Of a stretch of 49,897 nucleotides of DNA, positions 1,710-11,879 are shown in pieces (position 1 is the first letter of the stretch; each line of letters opens with the position of its first letter). The translations under genes and the position numbers were made by a program. The notes under the pieces are model-generated. The model did not search any database. It was not told the DNA's origin and saw only the letters and a list, made by a program, of their open reading frames with translations. Source of the DNA: Halorubrum coriense DSM 10284 (GTDB lineage: Archaea; Halobacteriota; Halobacteria; Halobacteriales; Haloferacaceae); NCBI RefSeq assembly GCF_000337035.1, contig NZ_AOJL01000058.1:1-49897 (forward strand). The letters run 5' to 3'.

Positions 1710-1861
1710 CGACGCCCGTTCCCCGGCGAACTCGCCTCCACCCACGAACTTATTAGCACACGCCGCCGTTCAGCGATCGACGGCTACCTGACGCTTGCGC
1801 GACAGAAATATCGGTGCGGCGGCAGCCGCTTCAACCCCGTCTCCGAGCCGAGTCTGATACC

Positions 1862-3025
1862 ATGTCGATCAAACGAACGCTGTCCGTGGCCCTACAGGTG
1901 GCCGCGGTGTTGGTCGTTCTCTCGCTCGTCGTCGGGCAGTTCCTCGGCCAGCCGGTCCTCCTCAGCTACGTCGAGACCGGCAGCATGCAGCCGACGCTCG
2001 ACCCGGGCGACGGGTTCATCGCGATCCCGGCCCAGATCGCGGGCGGGATCGGGCCCGGAGACATCGTGACGTTCGACGCACAGGAGATCCAGGGCGGCGG
2101 GCTGACGACTCACCGGGTCGTCGAGGAGACCGAACGCGGCTATATCACCCGCGGCGACAACAACCCGTTCACCGACCAAGACGGCGGCGAGCCGGTCGTT
2201 CAGGACGCGGACGTCGTCGCGAAGGCACTCCAAGTGGGCGGCGGCGTCGTTGTGATCCCCCACCTCGGGACCGCCGCCATGGGGTTCCAGTCCGCGTTAC
2301 AGTCTGTCCAGACGCAGTTAGCGGTGACGTTCGGCGTCCGGTCGCTCCAGGGGACGCAGGGGCTCGCGTACATCATCTTCGGGCTGTCGGCGGTCGCGTA
2401 CGCGGTCGACTGGTACCTCACCGCCGGCGGCCGGGACCGGGAGACGCGCGACCGGTCCCGCGACGATGGGACCTCCGTGCTGGCGATCCTCGGCACGCTG
2501 GCGCTGGTGCTGATGGCGACGGCGACGGCGGCGATGATCGTGCCGGCTGGAACGCAGGAGTACGGCGTCGTGAGCGCCGAGTTTGAGTCGGAGAACCCGA
2601 CCGTCATCGAGAGCGGCACGAGCCATGAGCTCGAGTACGTCGTCCCCAACGCCGGGATCGTCCCGGTGTACGCCTACGTCACGCCCGCGAGCCCGGGCGT
2701 CAACGTCGACCCGCAGCGGCTCTCGGTGGGGAGCCGCGGAGAGGCGTCGACGACAGTGACGTTGTCGGCACCGGACGAGACGGGGTATTACCGCCTGTTC
2801 GTCGTCGAACACCGCTACCTCGCTGTGTTGCCTCCTGGGATCGTCGACGAACTGTACGGCGTTCACCCCTGGGTCCCGCTCGTCGCGATAAACGGGCTGC
2901 TCGGCGGCGGCGTCGTCGCGATCGGACTGCTGCTCCTGCGCGGCGAACCCGCTCGGATCCGGTCGCGGGACTCCCGCGAGCGTCCCCCGCTCCACCGGCG
3001 ACTCCTCCGCGAGCTGTATAAGTAA
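1862..3025 (+). CDS. Signal peptidase I (archaeal/ER type) with long C-terminal extension
   Basis: I place the start at the ATG at 1862 because the frame upstream is Arg-rich and non-coding in appearance; this gives 387 residues. A hydrophobic helix (~9-28) is followed by the S26B core: Ser41 in TGSMQP, His84 in TTHRV, and acidic residues around 99-107 (RGDNNPFTDQD). This is the Ser/His/Asp arrangement of archaeal and ER signal peptidases. Unlike ordinary archaeal enzymes, which end soon after the core, this one continues with at least three more hydrophobic segments and a beta-rich, probably extracellular domain (~235-345). The final helix (~350-370) is followed by a basic tail. The gene is 5 bp upstream of the DUF5305 gene, so the two are probably co-transcribed. 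I infer a specialised peptidase for a subset of exported proteins; the extension may bind substrate. Confidence 0.88.
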   Translation: MSIKRTLSVALQVAAVLVVLSLVVGQFLGQPVLLSYVETGSMQPTLDPGDGFIAIPAQIAGGIGPGDIVTFDAQEIQGGGLTTHRVVEETERGYITRGDNNPFTDQDGGEPVVQDADVVAKALQVGGGVVVIPHLGTAAMGFQSALQSVQTQLAVTFGVRSLQGTQGLAYIIFGLSAVAYAVDWYLTAGGRDRETRDRSRDDGTSVLAILGTLALVLMATATAAMIVPAGTQEYGVVSAEFESENPTVIESGTSHELEYVVPNAGIVPVYAYVTPASPGVNVDPQRLSVGSRGEASTTVTLSAPDETGYYRLFVVEHRYLAVLPPGIVDELYGVHPWVPLVAINGLLGGGVVAIGLLLLRGEPARIRSRDSRERPPLHRRLLRELYK

Positions 3026-3030
3026 CACGC

Positions 3031-4371
3031 ATGTCTTCAGATCCCAACGAACGCCGACTCCGACTCCGCGCCGTCCTGAACGCACAGTCCACCGCAATTC
3101 TCGTCGCTTGTCTCGTTCTCACCGCGGTCGGGGCGGGGCTCGTGTACACGACGCATGTCGACCCCGGCACGGAGACGGAGAGCCGGACGGTCTCCTCGCT
3201 CACCGTCGAAAGCGAGTACCGCCACAGCGCGACGGTGACGGAGCCGAACGCGGTCTTCGAGACCGGCGCGGTGCTCGACGGCCGGAACACGTACTTCACG
3301 CGGATCGCCCCGGAGCTCGACGTGGACGTGGCGATGAGCTACGCCGCGTCGAGCGCCGAAAACGTGACCGTCGAGCTCGACTCCGTGCTCGTGATCCGGA
3401 ATGTCGGCGAGGGTGACACGGTCTACTGGCGTGAGACAGAGCCGCTCGCGTCGGAGACCGTCTCGGGGGTCGGGCCCGGCGAGACCGTCAACACCACGTT
3501 CACGCTCAACAGCACCGCCATCGACGGGCGCGTGGCGTCGATTGAAGAGCAACTCGGCGCGTCGCCCGGCGAGACGGAGACGTTTGTCACGACGGAAGTC
3601 GCCGTCGACGGGTCGATCGGCGGGGTCCCAACGGCGTCGACACAGACACTCGACATGACGGTCGCGCACAGCGGCGACACGTACTCGGTCGACGAGCCCG
3701 GCGTCCAATCGGACACTACGTCGCGGAGCGAACCGGTCACCGTTGAGCGGGAGTACGGCGTGCTCCGATCGCTGGGCGGCCCGCTCCTCCTGCTCGTCGG
3801 CCTCGTTGGGGCCGCCGGAATGAGGTACGCGGCCCGGGAGTTCGACCTCGCGCTCACGCCCGCGGAGCGGAACTACCTCTCGTATCGCGACGACCGCTCG
3901 GAGTTCGCGGAGTGGATCACGACGTTCCGGCTCCCCACTTCGGTCCACGAGCGCCCGACCGCAGAGGCAGGGTCGCTGCGTGACCTCGTCGACTTCGCGA
4001 TAGACAACGACACCGGCGTCGTGGAGGACCCCGAGACGGGTGCGTTTCACGCCGTCTCCGGGGATTTCGTCTACACGTACCGCCCGCCGGCACCGACGGA
4101 CTCAGGCGGGGGATCCGGTGACCAACCCGACGGCGACGCGATCGACCCGGAGAGTGGCCCCGGCGACCGCGACGCAGCCGAGCGGGACGGTGAACTCGCT
4201 GACCCAGAATCCACCGACGGCGACGAGTCGATGATGAATTGGGTCCGCGGGGCGGTCTCATTCGAATCTGCGGATCCGGACGCTGCGGCCGCGCCCAACA
4301 GCGGTGAGGAGACCGCCCGCGACGCAGAACCCAGCAACGACGACGAGAACGTGACGGACGACACGGTCTGA
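3031..4371 (+). CDS. DUF5305-type membrane protein
   Basis: A 446-residue protein starting 5 bp after the extended signal peptidase. It has an N-terminal hydrophobic helix (~21-40), an ectodomain-like beta-rich region (~45-245) with many Thr/Val strands and several N-x-S/T sequons, and a second hydrophobic helix (~249-266). A cytoplasmic-looking region follows (~270-350, including YLSYRDDRSEFAEWIT), then a low-complexity acidic Gly/Ser/Asp tail. This layout matches the haloarchaeal DUF5305 family, which is commonly found beside signal peptidases. Its function is not known. The tight pairing suggests it works with the peptidase, perhaps as an accessory or substrate-presenting subunit, but that is inference. 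Confidence 0.78.
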   Translation: MSSDPNERRLRLRAVLNAQSTAILVACLVLTAVGAGLVYTTHVDPGTETESRTVSSLTVESEYRHSATVTEPNAVFETGAVLDGRNTYFTRIAPELDVDVAMSYAASSAENVTVELDSVLVIRNVGEGDTVYWRETEPLASETVSGVGPGETVNTTFTLNSTAIDGRVASIEEQLGASPGETETFVTTEVAVDGSIGGVPTASTQTLDMTVAHSGDTYSVDEPGVQSDTTSRSEPVTVEREYGVLRSLGGPLLLLVGLVGAAGMRYAAREFDLALTPAERNYLSYRDDRSEFAEWITTFRLPTSVHERPTAEAGSLRDLVDFAIDNDTGVVEDPETGAFHAVSGDFVYTYRPPAPTDSGGGSGDQPDGDAIDPESGPGDRDAAERDGELADPESTDGDESMMNWVRGAVSFESADPDAAAAPNSGEETARDAEPSNDDENVTDDTV

Positions 4372-4423
4372 GACGACCACGGACGGCCCGCCTCGGATCA
4401 AGCCTCTTGGTTGTCGTTGATCG

Positions 4424-4651
4424 CTAGATTGTGTCGGATCCGTCAACCTCGTCTGGGTTCTCCTCGTTGTACCACGAGCGTTCTGGCCCCCATCCGAGTA
4501 GCCGCTCAGCCTTCGAGCAGTCGGATTCGATTCCTTCGGTGTTGTGCTTTTCAACAGTACCCCGACTCGGATCACCGTCATTAGAAAGAGCAAGGAGAAT
4601 ACCCATAGCTTTAGCCACATTTTGACGTCGTCCTCCGCAGGCGCAAAGTGG
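4424..4651 (-). pseudogene. C-terminal scrap of an NAD-dependent epimerase/dehydratase
   Basis: The minus-strand frame is open from a stop at 4652-4654 to a stop at 4424-4426 (about 75 residues). Near its end is SKAERLLGWGPERSW, the recognisable C-terminal signature of sugar-nucleotide epimerases/dehydratases (usual form SKA-x-x-LGW-x-P). The preceding part (VAKAMGILLALS) may be the end of the helix that lines up with A-x-A-x-x-LAL in those enzymes. The Rossmann fold and the catalytic YxxxK region are absent, so this is a remnant of a gene of roughly 300 codons. A possible GTG start at 4618 exists, but expression of a 64-residue piece seems unlikely. It marks the left edge of the low-GC island; another epimerase remnant marks the right edge. 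Confidence 0.6.
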
Positions 4652-4843
4652 TTATGATAGCCCCCCTCATCTCATAATCCCATCTGGGCCAACCTACCGC
4701 CCGCCACTGCGTGGGTTCGCCGACGTCGCTTTGGTTTTGTTTCTGTTCCTATTAATCGCGAACTCTCGGCTGCAACTTGCGACGTCTGAATAGCCAACGC
4801 AGACCAAGGAGATGGCAGATTCCTGTGCGTGGACCCTGCCGAC

Positions 4844-5300
4844 TCATTCTGGCTCGGATGCGCTAGAAACTGCGATCCCAGTGCTTTCATGCGGGGCAAC
4901 AAGCGTAGTGACTTCTGGGAGTGTTCCCTCATGGATGCTCTCGCCACCGGTGAGGTACCATGCGAGCCGTACCGAGAATGTTTCACCATAATCCAGCCGA
5001 ACGATCGTATCCGGTGGCACTGTCTTGAGGATACTGTCGAGTTTGTCGGCCGAGAACACTGATCGTGCGGAGCCAGCATTCGCTGGACCCGGAAGATTGG
5101 CTTGTTCGCGGCGATATCGTGTGGGTGGTGGCGTTGATGTAGCGTCAGTTGTGGCCGGTTTCATATCGAACGTGTAGTTCTCCTCGGTGTCGACGTTGTC
5201 GCTCTCCCACCAGATACGTAGAACCCTCGGATGTTTGCACCCTCAGCGAACTCTGTGGCCACCCAGACCATACCTGTGTGAAAAAGTTCTGGACACATTT
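4844..5300 (-). pseudogene. Truncated, frameshifted sliding-clamp (PCNA-like) remnant
   Basis: On the minus strand, the last ~60 residues line up with the C-terminal domain of haloarchaeal PCNA: GSARSVFSADKLDSILKTVP corresponds to the family's GSAHSLFS-x-x-YL-x-x-M-x-KAIP, followed by a strand (VRLDYGETFSVRLAW for x-L-G-E-E-F-P-V-K-x-x-F) and a TTLVAP end (family YMLAP). Upstream, EFAEGANIRGFYVSG resembles the region before the inter-domain strands, but it lies in another frame. The switch falls near 5206-5210, after which SDNVDTEENYTFD continues in the new frame. The N-terminal domain is missing because the sequence runs into the end of the DUF7344-like gene at 5315. It is therefore 5'-truncated and frameshifted. 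PCNA assignment rests on my reading of the motif; a distant clamp-like viral or plasmid protein is possible. Confidence 0.6.
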
Positions 5301-5314
5301 GAACGCGTGCTCCG

Positions 5315-5848
5315 TCAGTCAAACATTGCATTAAGATACACCCAGCGGGACATCCACAGTTGGTATCCAATTGAGACGCTGAAAACGACAAGAAACACGC
5401 TCACGAACAAGACCGGATCGATCATGGAGATGACGGGGACCTCAACGAGCGCTGCGAAGACGATGAGCAACGAGAGCGTGCCAAGCATGCTGTAATATTC
5501 GCTCCACGTGATCCCGTATGGAGTGACGACTTCCATGTACACGTCGACAGAGCGGGCGTTCTCGGTGAGTCGGATTGTCTTCCTGTTGGACTCGTACTCT
5601 ACGATTCCGCTGTTGTCGAGTTTCGGGAGATGCGTCTGGTGGAGCGAGTTGTAGACGCTGTTGCGGATATTCTTTGGCGGCGGCGACTCACCGGTCTCGC
5701 GTTCGGCGATGCTTTCTGCAAGGTCTCGGAGAGTCGTCTTGCCAACTGTACCTTGTAGTTGCTTGATCACTTGACGCCTGCGCTCGTTGCGAAGCAGATC
5801 GTGGATGTCCGTTTCAGGAATCTCTTGGGATCGACTTCTGATGGCCAT
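5315..5848 (-). CDS. DUF7344-like winged-helix protein with two C-terminal membrane helices
   Basis: I use the ATG at 5848 (177 residues); an in-frame start at 5899 would add a Cys/Arg-rich leader that looks non-coding. Residues ~10-95 form a winged-helix-like domain: a helix with LLRNERRRQVIKQL, a second helix around LRDLAESIAERE, and the HLPKLDNSGIVEYES stretch typical of haloarchaeal DUF7344/MarR-like regulators. Residues ~115-170 hold two hydrophobic segments. This one-component, membrane-anchored regulator type is common in haloarchaea. It points away from the secreted-protein cluster that begins ~950 bp away and is the only regulator in the island, so it is a candidate controller of that cluster (inference). 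Third-codon positions are less GC-biased than in outside genes, as in the rest of the island. Confidence 0.8.
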   Translation of the reverse strand: MAIRSRSQEIPETDIHDLLRNERRRQVIKQLQGTVGKTTLRDLAESIAERETGESPPPKNIRNSVYNSLHQTHLPKLDNSGIVEYESNRKTIRLTENARSVDVYMEVVTPYGITWSEYYSMLGTLSLLIVFAALVEVPVISMIDPVLFVSVFLVVFSVSIGYQLWMSRWVYLNAMFD

Positions 5849-6341
5849 ATCTTGAGTTCTCCTTCTGGTCTCTCCAGCCGAACACCAAGACACACACAAT
5901 AGTGTTTCAAAGGTAATTGTGTCCTAATAGACATCAGTCCGTTTCAGGTGGTCCCTTCGGTCGCAAACTAGGGGTGTTCTCGGAAGACGATGCTTTCAGG
6001 TCAAAGTCAGTAGTTTCCGACCGTATTCTGTTCCCCATGCGCATTGAGCTATTAGTACTTTTTCTCGGAGTAGTTTGCTCCTAACAGGCCAAATACCGGC
6101 GTATAAGCCGGTTTCGTTTATACAGACAGGCCATCGCAGGTTCGTTTTGGCCGTCCACTGGTTCGAGAAGATACCGAAGGTCACGCTCTGATTGTAGCCT
6201 CCTAAACCGCTCATTGGCTCCTCAAATCCCCGGTTCAGAGATCCAAACTAGCTATTATGTCAGAAATTAAGTGATTAGCTAAGGGGATGGGCGTTTTGGC
6301 GTCTGGTACGCCCGGCGGGGACACGCGTCGGGACGATCACG
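5849..6341. other. Non-coding, relatively AT-rich gap inside the island
   Basis: I see no convincing gene here on either strand. It holds the upstream region of the DUF7344-like gene (minus strand, immediately left) and several AT-rich stretches. A short perfect inverted repeat, ACCGGC-GTATAA-GCCGGT at 6095-6112, is the only clear structure. A 72-residue frame at 5996-6214 on the minus strand has no haloarchaeal codon bias or recognisable motif. Confidence 0.5.
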
Positions 6342-6812
6342 ATGCCAACCGAGAGCTTCGAACCGCCACGGTGGAACGCGCTACCCGGCCTCAGTACCAG
6401 TAGCGTCACCTCCGTCGAAGTCGGTACGAGGACAACTGCGAACGTCAGCGAGGAAGAGTCAGCTCGGGTCCTCGCGGACAGGTTGTGCCTGTACGTCGAG
6501 CATTTTGGGGTGGTCACACAGAGCGAGCGTGGTTTCGAGATCGGAGTCACCGCGCCTGGCGACAGCAGGACGACGACCCCCCTCCACCACGGAGTGCCAG
6601 CCACACTCTCAGACGAGCATCTGGACCACGTTCCGCACGCGGGTGCGGCGTCAGTCGTTGGGCAGAGTAGAACGCGCAACACGAATAATAGCCTGATCGG
6701 CGTTTCGGGGTTCGACTCCTCGGCAGGCCGTCCGCCTCGCTGCCCGGAGGTTTCGGGACCGGGGAGGCTGGCTCACGGACTACCGTTGGAGGTCAACGAT
6801 GTCAGAAGATAA
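6342..6812 (+). CDS. Possible small gene or gene remnant of unknown function
   Basis: A 156-residue frame from ATG 6342. The first ~105 codons show haloarchaea-like usage (frequent GTC, GAC, GAG, ACC, CTC) and a plausible helix-then-strand section (ESARVLADRLCLYVEHFGVV, then a Gly/Val-rich part). After ~residue 105 the codon bias disappears. The end overlaps the start of the secreted-protein gene at 6799 and includes the T-arm-like hairpin at 6706-6722. It could be a short gene whose real end was lost, or chance. I recognise no family. Confidence 0.3.
   Translation: MPTESFEPPRWNALPGLSTSSVTSVEVGTRTTANVSEEESARVLADRLCLYVEHFGVVTQSERGFEIGVTAPGDSRTTTPLHHGVPATLSDEHLDHVPHAGAASVVGQSRTRNTNNSLIGVSGFDSSAGRPPRCPEVSGPGRLAHGLPLEVNDVRR
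6706..6722 (+). promoter_or_regulatory. T-arm-like hairpin A upstream of the first SipW-type gene
   Basis: A five-pair stem (one G-T pair) closes the seven-base loop TTCGACT, which matches the tRNA T-loop consensus TTCRANY. It lies at -93 to -77 relative to the ATG at 6799. Equivalent hairpins occur before the other two secreted-protein genes. No other tRNA parts surround it. Confidence 0.5.
6775..6793 (+). promoter_or_regulatory. ACGG-ACTA-CCGT hairpin followed by a Shine-Dalgarno site
   Basis: The perfect 12-base element ACGGACTACCGT (6775-6786) is a four-pair stem with an ACTA loop. GGAGGT at 6788-6793 follows directly and sits 5 bases before ATG 6799, which supports that start. The same 12-mer recurs at 9696-9707 before the third secreted-protein gene. 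If folded in RNA it would lie next to the ribosome binding site. Confidence 0.55.
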
Positions 6813-7908
6813 TAGCGGCAAGGTCAACTTGTCACGGCGGAAGGCCCTCGCAGGCATTGGCGCAGCCGGTGCTGCGGTAGGGCTCGGAGGTATCGGTACT
6901 GTTGCACAACTGAGCGACACTGAATCGAACGCGGTCACGTTCACGGCCGGTGGACTTGACGGAGAGATCAGCTGGTCGGGCTCTTACAACGGGAAGCCTG
7001 TTAGCGAGTCTTCGCTAATCAGCATGGATACGTCCGGCACGACCGCTGACAACGGTGGGCTGTACGGGGACACTTCCATCCCCATCGACGTTTCGTTCAC
7101 CGACGTAAAGCCGGGAGACTTCGGCTGTGTCAACTTCAGTATCGAAGTACAGAGCAACGCTGCGTGGGTTGCGTCAGGTCTCAACGTTGTAGAGAACATC
7201 GATTACAAGAACTACGAGCCCGAACTCGGCGCAGACCCGAACGTCACGTCTGCGAACGCAGGTCCCGAAGCGGACTCAGAGTTTACTGCGACCAGCTACG
7301 ATGACCTCGAAGGGGAACAGCTCACACAGGGAGAACTCGCACAAAACATCTACGCGCTGCCGTACTACGATAGTGACGGCTCGTGTAAGTTCTTCGATGC
7401 CGGCTCGGACCAGTTCGACGCTACCAATTACGACGGTTCTGGCCCGAGTGCATTCTGGTCGAACTCCCAGAGTGGCGATGAACTCGTCAACGGAGAGCCC
7501 TTCATCGGTCCAGACGGGACTGAAGAGTACTACTTAGCTCCGCGCGACCTTGTGGACATCTCCCAGAATGTCAATGCCGTGGATACCGCTCACTGGACGT
7601 CAGGTGACGGCAGTCTCGGCTACCAGACGGCTTCAGGTGGGAGTGCGTCTGTCGCAACTGGCAGTGTGATGCTCGACGGCTCTGCCGCCACTGACGGGAC
7701 GACGGGGAACAACACCCAGGGCGTCTCGCCGCTCCAGCCCAGTGAGACACTGAACTTCGGCTACGACTTCCACATCCCCTTCGGCACTGGGAACGAGATC
7801 CAGGGCGACAGAGCGTCTATCGTGCTGGACTTTGCGTTCCTCCAGAGCAGACATACCGAAGCACCGAACTTCAACGAGTTCGCCCCCGGCAACAACACGC
7901 CCGAGTAA
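6799..7908 (+). CDS. Secreted protein with SipW-type signal peptide (TasA/camelysin-like), copy 1
   Basis: A 369-residue exported protein; the start is fixed by GGAGGT 5 bases upstream. The N-terminus has SRRKALAGIG, a hydrophobic Gly/Ala stretch and then AQLSDTES at ~36-43, the RR-hydrophobic-A-x-x-SDTE pattern of SipW-dependent signal peptides found in TasA and camelysin. The mature part is beta-rich and acidic. It shares KPGDxGC (105-110) and GNEIQGD near the C-terminus with the protein at 8509, so the two are paralogues. DSDGSCKFFD at 191-200 resembles a calcium-binding loop. The signal peptidase gene starts 3 bp after the stop and is the likely processing enzyme. Bacterial TasA and archaeal AbpA polymerise into donor-strand fibres; whether this protein does is inference. 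It could also be a non-polymeric surface protein. Confidence 0.8.
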   Translation: MSEDNSGKVNLSRRKALAGIGAAGAAVGLGGIGTVAQLSDTESNAVTFTAGGLDGEISWSGSYNGKPVSESSLISMDTSGTTADNGGLYGDTSIPIDVSFTDVKPGDFGCVNFSIEVQSNAAWVASGLNVVENIDYKNYEPELGADPNVTSANAGPEADSEFTATSYDDLEGEQLTQGELAQNIYALPYYDSDGSCKFFDAGSDQFDATNYDGSGPSAFWSNSQSGDELVNGEPFIGPDGTEEYYLAPRDLVDISQNVNAVDTAHWTSGDGSLGYQTASGGSASVATGSVMLDGSAATDGTTGNNTQGVSPLQPSETLNFGYDFHIPFGTGNEIQGDRASIVLDFAFLQSRHTEAPNFNEFAPGNNTPE

Positions 7909-7911
7909 CGC

Positions 7912-8445
7912 GTGAACTACCTGAGAATCATCAAGATTCTCGGGTTCACCGCACTGGTGACCGCAGTAGCTCTGTCGGCCATCAACGCCTTTCCGGGGTT
8001 GGTGGGAGCAGACTACTCGTTCATCGTCCAATCAGGCAGCATGGAACCAGCAATCTCAACCGGCTCGGTGGTGTTCGTGGAGGCCATACCTCCGGACCAA
8101 GCAGACGAACGTATTGAGGAAGGTGACGTAATTACGTTCAGTAAGTCTGGGAGCATTAGCCAGACCACAACGCATCGGGTGGTTGAGAAGCAAACCGGCG
8201 ACATCACCGATAGCGTCGCCTTCGTCACAAAAGGCGACGCGAACGAAAACCGAGATGGGGAACCGGTCCTCCGAAATGAGATTGTTGGGAAGGTGATGCT
8301 TGATGTCCCACTGATGGGATACGTAGCTCGGTTCGCTGGGACCAGTACCGGGTTGGCCGTACTGGTTATCCTTCCAATGACGCTGCTGTTTATGGACGGC
8401 CTCTGGCAGGTCTACCTCGCGTACGAGCCCGAGAAGGACGGATAG
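7912..8445 (+). CDS. Signal peptidase I dedicated to the SipW-type cluster
   Basis: A 177-residue protein from a GTG start 3 bp after the preceding stop. An N-terminal hydrophobic helix (~8-28) is followed by the S26B core: Ser43 in SGSMEP, His88 in TTHRV, and Asp109/Asp115 in KGDANENRDG. A second hydrophobic segment lies at ~148-168. It is the usual size of archaeal SipW-like peptidases and lacks the long extension of the enzyme at 1862. The active site faces the outside of the membrane. Its position between two SipW-type substrates argues that it cleaves their signal peptides, as SipW does for TasA in Bacillus. Codon bias is weaker than in genes outside the island. Confidence 0.9.
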   Translation: MNYLRIIKILGFTALVTAVALSAINAFPGLVGADYSFIVQSGSMEPAISTGSVVFVEAIPPDQADERIEEGDVITFSKSGSISQTTTHRVVEKQTGDITDSVAFVTKGDANENRDGEPVLRNEIVGKVMLDVPLMGYVARFAGTSTGLAVLVILPMTLLFMDGLWQVYLAYEPEKDG

Positions 8446-8476
8446 CAATCAACCAATCAATACCATATTGGCATAA

Positions 8477-8495
8477 CTGAGGTTCGATTCCTCAG
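8477..8495 (+). promoter_or_regulatory. T-arm-like hairpin A upstream of the second SipW-type gene
   Basis: A six-pair stem, CTGAGG/CCTCAG, closes the loop TTCGATT, again matching the tRNA T-loop consensus. It ends 13 bases before ATG 8509 and 32 bases after the stop of the signal peptidase gene. It could be an RNA leader element or part of a terminator. No T-run follows it. Confidence 0.5.
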
Positions 8496-8508
8496 ATGGG
8501 CATCAAAC

Positions 8509-9627
8509 ATGACTAAAATACCCAGACGCAGCGTGCTCGGTGGGCTCGGACTCATCGGGTTCGGGAGCGTGGCGGGAGGTGTCGGGACGAGGGCGCTCCT
8601 CAGCGACACAGAGGAAGTCGCAGTCATCGCAACTGCTGGTGAGTTAGATATTCAGTTGGATTGGAAGGCGTTCCACAACGGGACTCAGATCGCTATGCAG
8701 GCTCCAGCGGATACGAGCGGTCAGGTAGCGGCCCACTTCACAGACATCAAGCCTGGGGATGCTGGTTGTTTCAGTCTCAGTATCCACAACGAGACGAATC
8801 CTGCGTACGTGTGGCTCGCGATGGATATCGAACATGAGACAGATGGTGGAGACCAGCCGCAAGATGATCCCCACGAAAGCGAATGTCCACCGGTAGAGTA
8901 TCCGTGGGTGTGTGGGCAGACTACAACAGACGGGAGCGTTACGATCGCTAACGATGGGGGTACCCTCATCGTAGAAATCGAGTCTGCTTCTGGCCAGTCA
9001 CTCGGAGAGACGCATCTCCACATAACCGACTCTATCGAGAGTATCCCTGGTGGTCCGTCTCCGGGTCAGTTCGATTACAGTCATGAGAATATCGATGCGA
9101 CTACGGACACGTATGAGATTCCATTCGAGAACTCGAACTACAGTCTCTCATGTGGAGACACCCCTGTCATCGCAGTTCACGCGGAAGAGCTTGACGGGGA
9201 AGAGACCTGTTGGGCTGGTGCCACGGAAGTGAACTCGGGTCAGGGAGGAAGTTGGGCGTTAGCAATCGACCACACAATCGACTGTTGCTCGCCGACGGAG
9301 TTGGCGCAGCCGGCCGAAGAATATTCGCTCGCTGATAGGATTCTCCTTGATGCGTTCTGGGATACCAACGGGGACTGTAAGATCGACAGCGATGATACGG
9401 TGTTGTTCAGAGACATCACGCTCAGAAACTTGGCCAATAACATCGCTCCATCGACGGGTGGGATAATGCCAGAATGGGACATTGATGGGACACAGAATTT
9501 CTCACTCTTGTGGCGCATTCCGAAAGCGGTTGGAAACGAGATTCAGGGCGATGAATTGACGATTAGCTTCCACGCGTACGCGGAACAGCGGAGGCACAAC
9601 GTTGACCCAACTAATCCCTGGGTCTGA
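8509..9627 (+). CDS. Secreted protein with SipW-type signal peptide (TasA/camelysin-like), copy 2
   Basis: A 372-residue protein. The signal has PRRSVLGGLG, a Gly/Val-rich core and ALLSDTEE at ~29-36. It shares KPGDxGC (81-87), an N-P-A-Y-V-W stretch soon after, and GNEIQGD (342-348) followed by a Q-x-RH ending with the protein at 6799, so the two are paralogues. DTNGDCKIDSDD at 285-296 is a good EF-hand/dockerin-type calcium loop. It contains about ten cysteines, including CC at 259-260, which is unusual for a haloarchaeal secreted protein and suggests disulfides. Its translation start lies 63 bp after the signal peptidase stop, behind a T-arm-like hairpin. I infer surface export and possibly fibre formation; the function is unproven. 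Confidence 0.78.
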   Translation: MTKIPRRSVLGGLGLIGFGSVAGGVGTRALLSDTEEVAVIATAGELDIQLDWKAFHNGTQIAMQAPADTSGQVAAHFTDIKPGDAGCFSLSIHNETNPAYVWLAMDIEHETDGGDQPQDDPHESECPPVEYPWVCGQTTTDGSVTIANDGGTLIVEIESASGQSLGETHLHITDSIESIPGGPSPGQFDYSHENIDATTDTYEIPFENSNYSLSCGDTPVIAVHAEELDGEETCWAGATEVNSGQGGSWALAIDHTIDCCSPTELAQPAEEYSLADRILLDAFWDTNGDCKIDSDDTVLFRDITLRNLANNIAPSTGGIMPEWDIDGTQNFSLLWRIPKAVGNEIQGDELTISFHAYAEQRRHNVDPTNPWV

Positions 9628-9646
9628 TCGCACCCTCTCGGAGCGA

Positions 9647-9707
9647 CTCAGGTTCGACTCCTGAGGAGGGCTTTGCACCAATACGGTGCTGGTTGACGGA
9701 CTACCGT
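9647..9707 (+). promoter_or_regulatory. Three-hairpin leader before the third SipW-type gene
   Basis: Three consecutive perfect hairpins lie between the stop of the preceding gene and ATG 9717. Hairpin A, CTCAGG-TTCGACT-CCTGAG (9647-9665), has a T-loop-like loop. Hairpin B is GCACC-AATAC-GGTGC (9675-9689). Hairpin C is ACGG-ACTA-CCGT (9696-9707), identical to 6775-6786. No Shine-Dalgarno sequence is visible here, unlike at 6788. Confidence 0.55.
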
Positions 9708-9716
9708 AACACAACA

Positions 9717-10328
9717 ATGACAGATGACGATGGAATAAGCAGACGAAAAGCACTCGGGGGTATCGCGCTGACGGGTATAGCAGCAGGTGGAGGCGGCGCA
9801 GGGACATTCGCGTACCTCACAGACTCAGATTCAGTTGACTCCACATTCAAAATTGGGAGTCTCGTTCTGGAGACCACTCCCAGCGACGGAGCATTGAAAT
9901 TCGAGAGTCTGGCAGAAGGCGAACAGAACTCGTCAACCATAGACGTGTGTAACGGCGGCTCGCTCCCGATCAGGAACGTCATCCTCGCCGGGCTTACGAT
10001 AGATGGCAACACCGAGGTTGCGAAAGCCATCAAGATCCGTGAGGTGAGATACGGCGGCGATACCGTGGCCGATCCGTCGGATATCACAGACGCCAACAGC
10101 AATGGCATCACTGATCTCGACGACCTCAATACTTGGCTGGGGGACAGGAGCCTCAGCCTCACTGACTCGACGGGCCAAGGCACGCTCAACGGGACTGATG
10201 CCGGTGGCAGCGAGTGTGCGTTGCTCGTCATCAAAACGGAGATGGATTACAGCGTGCTGTCCGATGTTCCTGATAATGCGAGTGTCAATGCGTCGGTGGA
10301 CCTCATTGGCAAACAAGAGCCTCTCTGA
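9717..10328 (+). CDS. Secreted protein with SipW-type signal peptide, copy 3 (shorter)
   Basis: I choose ATG 9717 (203 residues); the in-frame TTG at 9693 would run translation through hairpin C. The signal has SRRKALGGIA, a Gly/Ala core and AYLTDSDS, again the SipW-type pattern. The mature part is a single beta-rich domain of about 165 residues with a Cys pair (~72 and ~156). DANSNGITDLDD in the middle resembles a dockerin/EF-hand loop. It lacks the KPGDxGC and GNEIQGD blocks of the two larger proteins, so it is a different subtype, similar in size to bacterial TasA/camelysin. It may be a minor or capping component of the same structure; that is inference. Confidence 0.78.
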   Translation: MTDDDGISRRKALGGIALTGIAAGGGGAGTFAYLTDSDSVDSTFKIGSLVLETTPSDGALKFESLAEGEQNSSTIDVCNGGSLPIRNVILAGLTIDGNTEVAKAIKIREVRYGGDTVADPSDITDANSNGITDLDDLNTWLGDRSLSLTDSTGQGTLNGTDAGGSECALLVIKTEMDYSVLSDVPDNASVNASVDLIGKQEPL

Positions 10329-10500
10329 TCCGATCAATTTTTATCCAAACCGCAGACAGAACCCGTGTTCCAGATTCTTCTGGGAGAACGACACAGGTCT
10401 GTGTCCGGGTGGATAACTGAGCACGGTGTAGTAGGGAGCCGATCAAACGGGGAAATTTCGAGTTTTCAGAGCTAGATCAATTCATCTGCGTGGATACTGA

Positions 10501-10902
10501 TCACTGATACGAGTCACAGACCCGGGCGACACCCTCTTCGAAGCCGATCTGGGGTTCTCAACCCGTGGCTTCGTGGAGCTTTGAGTGGTCAGCCATTGTA
10601 TCGTGGACGTACACCGCAAGCGGATTCTCGGTGTACTTCGGCGCAACGTTAGTGCCGAGTTCGTCGTTGATCAGCGCGACCATCTCGTTGAACGCGTGAC
10701 TTTCGGCGGTACCGACGTTGTAGATGCCCTGAAGTTCGTGATCGGCCGCGAGCTCGCAGGCGCGGACCACGTCGTCGTGGCGGTCCTCGGTCGGTGGCGT
10801 CCTCCGGTCGTCGGCGACCACCTCGCGGCCCGCATCGGCGAGCGCGTCGACCATCCACGCGCCGACGCCGCCGCTCGATCCCGTGAGCAGTACCGTGCCC
10901 AT
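10501..10902 (-). pseudogene. NAD-dependent epimerase pseudogene with internal deletion and in-frame stop
   Basis: The N-terminus (MGTVLLTGSSGGVGAWMVDA) is a clear Rossmann nucleotide-binding motif, but after ~37 residues it jumps to the C-terminal third of an epimerase (VVRACELAADHELQGIYNVG, then a substrate-domain section). The middle with the catalytic Ser/Tyr-x3-Lys is gone. The frame reaches TGA at 10558-10560 exactly where GW-x-P is expected (EATG-stop-EPQIGFEEGV), so TGG has become TGA. Reading through gives 19 more sensible residues to a second TGA at 10501-10503. The gene is therefore both deleted and nonsense-mutated. Healthy members are about 300 residues. It forms the right edge of the low-GC island. 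Confidence 0.85.
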
Positions 10903-11171: not shown

Positions 11172-11288
11172 ACGTGACTGTTGACGCCGCCGACACAACT
11201 GCCTTTCTGTCGCCCCCGATGCCGACCGTTTTCCGCGACCGTCTGACCTCCCGGACGGCTTTTGCCCGCGTCGGCCGAACGCCCGGCC

Positions 11289-11879
11289 ATGCGCACGCTC
11301 GACGAGACGGACCGAGAGATCATCAGGCTGCTGCTGGCCGACGCCAGACGGCCGTACAGCGACATCGCCGACCGCGTAGACCTGTCCGCGCCCGCGGTGT
11401 CGGACCGGGTCGACCGCCTCCGCGAGGTGGGCGTCATCCAGGGCTTCACGCTCCGGATCGACGGGGACGCTCTCTCCGACGGGTTACGGGTGCTCGTGAC
11501 CCTCGCCGTCCCGCCCGCGGAGGCCGAGCGCGTCCACGGAGCGGTCGCGGGCCACGAGCGCGTCGAGCACGCGTTCCTTACCGCCGACGGCGAGGTGACG
11601 CTCGTCGCGCGCGCCGAGGTGGGGACGGCCCGCGACCTCGTCGACGACGCGGTCGGACTGGACGCCGTGCGCGACCTGTCGGTGCGGCCGCTCGACGCCC
11701 ACGACTGGTCGCCCGCGGTCGGCGACGCCGACCTCGCGGTTGAGTGCGTTGAGTGCGGTAACACCGTCACCGCCGAGGGGGAGTCGGCGCGGATCGATGG
11801 GACGCTGTACCACTTCTGTTGCGGCTCCTGTCGGGAGAACTTTGAGGAGCGGTTCGACCGGATCGAAGAGGGGGCGTAG
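11289..11879 (+). CDS. Lrp/AsnC-type regulator with C-terminal TRASH metal-sensing domain
   Basis: The start is ATG 11289 (196 residues), matching the usual beginning of Lrp/AsnC proteins (MRTLDETDREII). Residues ~3-60 are the helix-turn-helix (YSDIADRVDLSAPAVSDRV). Residues ~65-135 are the RAM-like ligand domain. Residues ~150-190 form a TRASH zinc-ribbon-like domain with C153-x2-C156 and H175-F-C-C-x2-C181. In archaea this fusion senses copper or other soft metals and controls copper efflux genes. The divergent copper chaperone supports that role. The gene ends 69 bp before a tRNA on the same strand. Confidence 0.88.
   Translation: MRTLDETDREIIRLLLADARRPYSDIADRVDLSAPAVSDRVDRLREVGVIQGFTLRIDGDALSDGLRVLVTLAVPPAEAERVHGAVAGHERVEHAFLTADGEVTLVARAEVGTARDLVDDAVGLDAVRDLSVRPLDAHDWSPAVGDADLAVECVECGNTVTAEGESARIDGTLYHFCCGSCRENFEERFDRIEEGA

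Follow-up and report, generated by a model that had tools for sequence, protein, structure and literature searches.

The window analysed here, a 49,897-nucleotide stretch of the haloarchaeon Halorubrum coriense DSM 10284 (contig C58 of genome G000), contains an export gene set in which three secreted proteins (S1, S2 and S3) are encoded together with a signal peptidase and a divergently transcribed DUF7344 gene, and in which each secreted-protein gene is preceded by a tRNA-like leader element, or t-element (Table 1). The original prediction for this locus described three adjacent secreted proteins with arginine-arginine (RR) signals, a 177-residue signal peptidase starting 3 bp after the first of them, the motifs KPGDxGC and GNEIQGD common to S1 and S2, and a DUF7344-like regulator, all of which we confirm. 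Two of its start codons are revised, as ATG at 5848 is preferred over TTG at 5899 for the regulator and ATG at 9717 over TTG at 9693 for S3, and the t-elements were absent from it. Our interpretation, which we hold to be probable though well short of certain, is that the gene set is an operon that was acquired by horizontal transfer and specifies a surface fibre or matrix of the TasA type, and that its mRNA undergoes tRNA-like processing.

Table 1. Coordinates of the features at the locus, numbered from the first nucleotide of the window.
Feature	Position	Strand	Evidence
Second archaeal signal peptidase, 403 aa; DUF5305 gene (to 4371) follows	1814-3025
Low-GC inserted island	4372..10900 (approximate extent)		GC drop; comparison of the gap between DUF5305 and AsnC-TRASH genes
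DUF7344 winged-helix protein, two C-terminal hydrophobic segments, candidate regulator	5315..5848	-	PF24035, 98.9 bits (cut-off 27.8)
t-element 1, before S1: GCCTG / ATCGG linker / T-arm TCGGGG-TTCGACT-CCTCGG / CAGGC	6689..6730	+	R1, 36.3 bits
S1, RR/SipW-type secreted protein, 369 aa, RRKAL, KPGDFGC and GNEIQGD	6799..7908	+	Open reading frame (ORF); TIGR04088 borderline; orthologues
SipW-like archaeal (ER-type) signal peptidase, 177 aa, GTG start at 7912, 3 bp past the S1 stop	7912..8445	+	TIGR02228, 101.7 bits (cut-off 51.85)
t-element 2, before S2: CCAT / ATTGG linker / T-arm CTGAGG-TTCGATT-CCTCAG / ATGG; acceptor only 4 bp	8460..8502	+	R1, 37.7 bits
S2, RR/SipW-type secreted protein, 372 aa, RRSVL, KPGDAGC and GNEIQGD	8509..9627	+	ORF; TIGR04088 borderline
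t-element 3, before S3: CCCTC / TCGG linker / T-arm CTCAGG-TTCGACT-CCTGAG / GAGGG	9631..9672	+	R1, 43.7 bits
S3, TasA/camelysin-like secreted protein, 203 aa, RRKAL, ATG start	9717..10328	+	PF12389; TIGR04088; Foldseek

t-elements in the leaders of secreted-protein genes

Three copies of the sequence GGTTCGAYTCC occur in the window, as compared to 0.15 expected, and each is located on the sense strand upstream of a gene for a peptidase substrate. When 130 leaders of related operons were inspected, the same arrangement emerged: a T-arm with the loop TTCGANT, complementary acceptor-like strands that flank it, and a short NNNGG linker on the 5' side of the T-arm. The fairest test of the pairing used 46 T-arms picked by their loop and T stem alone, as later sets were partly selected for pairing; an acceptor of 5 bp or longer and the GG linker lie upstream of 35 of them, as compared to a mean of 12.7 and a maximum of 21 in 500 trials in which the sequence upstream of the same 46 T-arms was shuffled. 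A covariance model built from the leaders of SipW-type genes (R1) was then used for searching. In its training alignment 94.7% of the cells are paired, against 31-55% in slid controls, and 10 of the 13 pairs vary on both sides; a set of 74 elements that is largely independent gives 92.3%, against 29-58% in slid controls, and 9 of 13. Since all three copies in the window belong to the training set, no independent evidence comes from their R1 scores. Of the 74 elements, 67 have the linker GG, which may act like the GG of a tRNA D-loop in its contact with the T-loop. At the family level the leaders contain a T-arm with a TTCRANN loop adjoining an acceptor-like stem, which is what defines a t-element; a complete cloverleaf is not present, as ARAGORN finds no tRNA gene in the window and Rfam no tRNA match between positions 4300 and 11000, and no known RNA family in Rfam corresponds to the leader element.

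The position of the elements is equally distinctive. The initial search of 40 loci gave 47 R1 matches, of which 38 lie within 100 nt on the 5' side of a SipW-type start codon, a region that makes up ~1% of the sequence searched, and most are found at 16-26 nt; several of the remaining nine precede further RR-signal genes in the same operons. Scored by the T-arm criterion, elements precede about half of the internal genes (32 of 62) but few first genes (3 of 35) and no coupled gene (0 of 15). Genome-wide, 120 of 243 genomes have R1 matches, of which 60 (two from training loci) were sampled and the next gene read. Of the 38 sampled matches with scores of 42 bits or more, 35 lie ahead of a gene whose product is exported (17 SipW/TasA-type, 11 DUF1102-like, 5 with other RR signals and 2 that are otherwise hydrophobic at the N-terminus), against a background of 82 in 623 genes by the same loose RR criterion; matches below ~40 bits are mixed and are not counted as support. 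In the genome studied here, contigs C63 and C68 also have DUF1102-like genes with a t-element in front (L083, 5101-5143 (-); L084, 4818-4906 (-) and 8273-8337 (+)).

A link to RNA processing is provided by the 5S rRNA genes. Applied to 30 haloarchaeal 5S loci, R1 yields 21 matches, of which 20 end at the 5S rRNA start or no more than 1 nt before it and the 21st covers the T-arm region alone. A separate T-loop search locates the element at 24 of 29 5S loci, including the 5S locus of this genome, and two of the 60 sampled genome-wide matches (L154 and L158) end 1 nt ahead of an Rfam 5S match. Hoelzle et al. reportedly described, in 2008 and 2012, a t-element upstream of haloarchaeal 5S rRNA and its cleavage by tRNase Z, as cited in PMC3296008 and PMC4326828. 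The H. volcanii enzyme cuts the 5S t-element to generate the 5S 5' end (PMC3296008), and in Haloferax cells RNase P and tRNase Z process a CRISPR RNA (crRNA) flanked by t-elements (PMC4326828; PMC4946936). The leader elements and the 5S t-element have in common the acceptor-like stem, the GG linker and the T-arm loop TTCGANT, and R1 finds both. They differ in their setting, as the 5S element immediately precedes the RNA that its cleavage releases, whereas the elements described here reside in protein-coding messages, mostly 16-26 nt on the 5' side of start codons, number one or several per locus, and precede genes for exported proteins. Because the leader elements resemble the structure used to release 5S rRNA, tRNA-processing machinery (tRNase Z, possibly with RNase P) probably cuts the polycistronic fibre mRNAs too.

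The fixed distance of 16-26 nt to the start codon, and the presence of elements before some first or single genes, where the separation of cistrons is pointless, are also what would be seen if the leader were a regulatory RNA acting in cis, such as a T-loop structure that binds a protein or ligand, controls translation or stability and is left uncut by tRNA-processing enzymes. We regard this explanation as unlikely, as R1 also detects, right at the 5' end of 5S rRNA, the t-element that is known from the literature to be cut by tRNase Z (PMC3296008), Haloferax cells cleave transplanted t-elements (PMC4326828), and the presence of the element at internal genes together with its rarity at first genes fits processing. 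An explanation at the level of DNA is that the palindromic copies between tandem paralogous genes are attC-like recombination sites between gene cassettes, which would account for the tandem arrangement of related genes. This is very improbable, since the elements share the orientation of the downstream gene, conserve the T-loop and a D-loop-like GG, and also occur before single genes and 5S rRNA; no recombinase gene was seen in the island. Several observations nevertheless weigh against processing of the mRNA. The R1 training set was partly selected for pairing and alignment A10 was fitted to the model, the acceptor stems in the window are short (4-5 bp, with a T stem of 6 bp), and minimum-free-energy folds fail to recover the acceptors cleanly. 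Moreover, about half of the internal SipW-type genes have no strict element, including those in a second operon of the same genome on contig C5, and S1 is a first gene yet has an element; at a first or single gene there is no upstream cistron for the element to set apart.

In the course of events that we infer for the processing of the message, the operon would be transcribed into a polycistronic mRNA with three t-elements, one on the 5' side of each substrate gene. tRNase Z, perhaps together with RNase P, would recognise these elements as it does the 5S t-element and would cut immediately beyond the 3' end of the acceptor-like stem. If the site corresponds to that at 5S rRNA, the cut before S2 is predicted at ~8503/8504, producing an S2 mRNA that begins at ~8504 and has a 5-nt leader before its ATG; other leaders would retain ~20 nt, often with a short C-rich/G-rich hairpin. 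Each substrate gene would in this manner give rise to a separate short-leader mRNA, so that translation and stability could be set for each subunit, and cutting ahead of a first or single gene would shorten its leader. We judge the chances to be evenly balanced for the broader proposal of a genome-wide 'tRNA punctuation' in haloarchaea, in which t-elements processed by tRNase Z (with RNase P) before TasA-like and DUF1102/pilin-like genes would yield short-leader mRNAs from internal cistrons and link the expression of fibres to the maturation of tRNA and 5S rRNA. Each of the components (TasA-like fibres, SipW-type peptidases and t-elements) is already known separately; no description of systematic t-elements before surface-fibre genes was found in the literature searched, outside which the 2012 work of Hoelzle and colleagues may overlap with our observations. 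If the proposal is true, a housekeeping tRNA-processing enzyme has dedicated archaeal mRNA targets, namely the messages for surface fibres, in an archaeal counterpart to mitochondrial tRNA punctuation that could adjust how much of each fibre subunit a single operon yields. The t-element would also serve as a marker for surface-fibre genes that is independent of sequence similarity. H. volcanii is well suited to direct testing, as tRNase Z, the 5S t-element, gene knock-down tools and the SipW-type signal are all available in this organism.

Two further groups of matches were noted. A recurrent RR-signal family (MNxDRRRLLGxLAGVAxGG...) that has no Pfam match is encoded at L086, L089, L098, L111, L113, L119 and L148, where the t-element stops just a few nt ahead of the ATG. 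At L142, L144, L146 and L160, weaker R1 matches (37-42 bits) are located on the 5' side of genes without an exported appearance, and these possibly represent other uses of the element or chance.

Secreted proteins and signal peptidase

Among the three secreted proteins, S3 is the best supported relative of TasA. It exceeds the cut-offs of both TIGR04088, the model of the SipW-dependent signal peptide (31.3 bits; cut-off 19), and PF12389, the TasA/camelysin family (29.4 bits; cut-off 22.5), whereas S1 and S2 lie near the former (15.3 and 16.3 bits in a protein scan, 20.2 and 20.6 bits in a six-frame scan) and do not reach the latter (16.0 and 12.0 bits, respectively). The original prediction had proposed a TasA-like fold for all three. 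When a structure model of S3 was searched with Foldseek, the TasA fibre 8aur (E 1.6e-6) was the sole PDB chain returned at E < 0.001, and the next-ranked matches are donor-strand pilins; the model is weak, as it was built from two sequences, has a predicted local distance difference test (pLDDT) score of 55 and superimposes on 8aur with a root-mean-square deviation of 10. The proposal may thus hold for S3, whereas the model of S1 (four sequences, pLDDT 38) produces fold matches that are uninformative. In a phmmer comparison S3 aligns in register with the N-terminal region of TasA (E 0.71, not significant alone), and in this register the KPGD of TasA, which is also present in S1 and S2, contains Pro62, part of the TasA 'proline box' (PMC10151520). 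S1 and S2 also have in common with TasA a GTxA cleavage site, followed by an aromatic residue or leucine and Asp, as well as a match in the signal. By their signal and KPGD motif S1 and S2 are thus counted as relatives. The two signal arginines are invariant across the aligned relatives of S1 and S2, which suggests that proteins of this type are exported by the twin-arginine translocation (Tat) pathway. Searches of solved structures with sequence profiles were less informative, as the profile of S1/S2 relatives did not retrieve TasA and gave a weak match in the signal region to 9p0a (E 0.018), and that from the pair of S3 sequences gave no matches.

The peptidase encoded after S1 contains Ser43, His88, Asp109 and Asp115, which are invariant in alignment A4 and include the Ser-His-Asp arrangement of enzymes of the endoplasmic reticulum (ER) type. 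It scores 102.4 bits against the Bacillus SipW equivalog NF046067, below the cut-off of 190; from these comparisons it is SipW-like without reaching the level of the equivalog. The locus had been called self-contained, with its own peptidase. Both descriptions call for some qualification, as there is a second peptidase gene in the window (Table 1) and the whole genome has six matches to TIGR02228 (archaeal signal peptidase I).

A surface fibre formed by S1-S3 is plausible, as S3 matches the TasA fibre, albeit through a weak model, and the participation of S1 and S2, whose folds are unsettled, is inferred. In such a system, precursors carrying twin-arginine signals that end in GTxA, before x(L/F)(S/T)D, would be cut by the adjacent SipW-like peptidase, and the cut would expose an N-terminal donor strand that enables assembly of the fibre by strand exchange. 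Counting against a fibre are the weakness of the S3 structure model, the lack of any significant sequence match between S3 and TasA beyond the N-terminal region, and the folds of S1 and S2, which are unproven. S1 and S2 are also large, lie under the camelysin cut-off and have no confident fold, and a paralogue on contig C5 (576 aa) contains an insert that by eye resembles a vWA domain, as might be expected if S1-S3 were secreted surface proteins (adhesins, or envelope or vesicle proteins) that do not undergo TasA-like polymerisation. We consider this doubtful, given the matches of S3 to the TasA fibre and then to donor-strand pilins, the signal and cleavage-site features common to S1-S3 and TasA, the KPGD in S1 and S2, and the deposition of a haloarchaeal-type RR protein in the PDB as a pilin (9p0a, the weak match noted above). 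That S1-S3 are metalloproteases of the camelysin type is the least probable of the explanations considered. It derives from the title of PF12389, camelysin metallo-endopeptidase (M73 in Pfam), whose cut-off S3 exceeds; HExxH is absent from the sequences of S1, S2 and S3, and the family includes structural proteins, such as TasA.

The proposed fibre operon resembles the Bacillus tapA-sipW-tasA and sipW-calY operons in that a TasA/camelysin-type substrate is encoded beside a dedicated ER-type signal peptidase, and in the GTxA site and proline box. It differs in its twin-arginine signals, in a peptidase of an archaeal family that falls below the SipW equivalog cut-off, in having several large substrates, a DUF7344 gene and t-elements, and in that no TapA was recognised in the haloarchaeal operon. 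The bundling pili AbpA of Pyrobaculum calidifontis are described as an archaeal example of a TasA-like donor-strand fibre (PMC9674648, PMC10151520), and their source is a hyperthermophile rather than a haloarchaeon. The DUF1102-like haloarchaeal proteins (PF06510; 9p0a, 'Pilin') likewise have an RR signal, are exported and often have the same t-element on their 5' side, but they form a family distinct from S1-S3, to which they are connected by the weak signal-region match of the S1/S2 profile.

Genomic island, candidate regulator and related operons

The gene set is an island inserted into a haloarchaeal genome of 70% GC. Its GC content is 55-58% over ~4.4-10.9 kb of the window, as compared to a genome background of ~70%. 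The DUF5305 gene (3031-4371) and the AsnC-TRASH gene (11262-11879) that enclose it are 6890 bp apart, whereas the gap is only 451-1371 bp in the eight genomes of the same genus that retain both genes as neighbours. A search of 18 other genomes of the genus with S1 returned no match better than 2.6e-15, which is at the level of paralogues. Orthologues of S1 with 60-61% identity occur in Salinigranum salinum and genome G266, and its nearest named relatives are found in Salinigranum and Halobellus. A viral origin was rejected, as relatives of S1 are absent from phage records and none was confirmed in viral contigs.

Related loci were sought with a hand-built signal profile, the peptidase and the DUF7344 protein as queries. 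Most of ~35 further loci from one order have the same layout, consisting of a divergent DUF7344 gene, one to seven SipW-type genes and a peptidase, in agreement with the expectation that the gene order is conserved in other haloarchaea. Salinigranum salinum carries the same gene set in the order S1, peptidase, S3, S2, and a Halobellus plasmid has a three-gene version annotated as SipW-dependent-type protein, signal peptidase I and TasA family protein. A second copy of the operon in the same genome, on contig C5 (56000-75500; L043), is high in GC and contains two DUF7344 genes, four substrates, among them the 576-aa paralogue, and a peptidase; it has no strict t-elements. SipW-type signals are present in 137 of 292 genomes of the class, which would place TasA-like fibre operons across about half of the sampled haloarchaea, and the H. 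volcanii control has one as well. Gene neighbourhoods of this kind are therefore not confined to the window, and NCBI annotation already covers this type of operon ('SipW-dependent-type signal peptide-containing protein', 'TasA family protein'). No publication on haloarchaeal SipW operons, DUF7344, DUF1102 or PDB entry 9P0A was found in the literature searched. Solely on the basis of its divergent synteny, the DUF7344 protein is a candidate for control of the operon.

Other features were noted in and around the island. The second peptidase and DUF5305 genes form a pair (1814-4371) that is high in GC and separate from the island, and they apparently represent ordinary chromosome adjoining it. 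At the opposite side, positions 10558-10902 (-) encode a 114-aa remnant of an epimerase/SDR protein in which the N- and C-terminal parts of the family are fused and the middle is missing; this is probably a decayed gene at the right edge of the island. Three ORFs without a family match (4672-5079, 5187-5495 and 6342-6812) were set aside as probably not genes. The segment between the regulator and the first t-element (5849-6688) comprises ~840 bp of apparently non-coding DNA, which is unusually long. Finally, the 12-mer ACGGACTACCGT, which contains a 4-bp hairpin, is identical at 6775-6786 and 9696-9707 (+), shortly 5' of the starts of S1 and S3, not S2.

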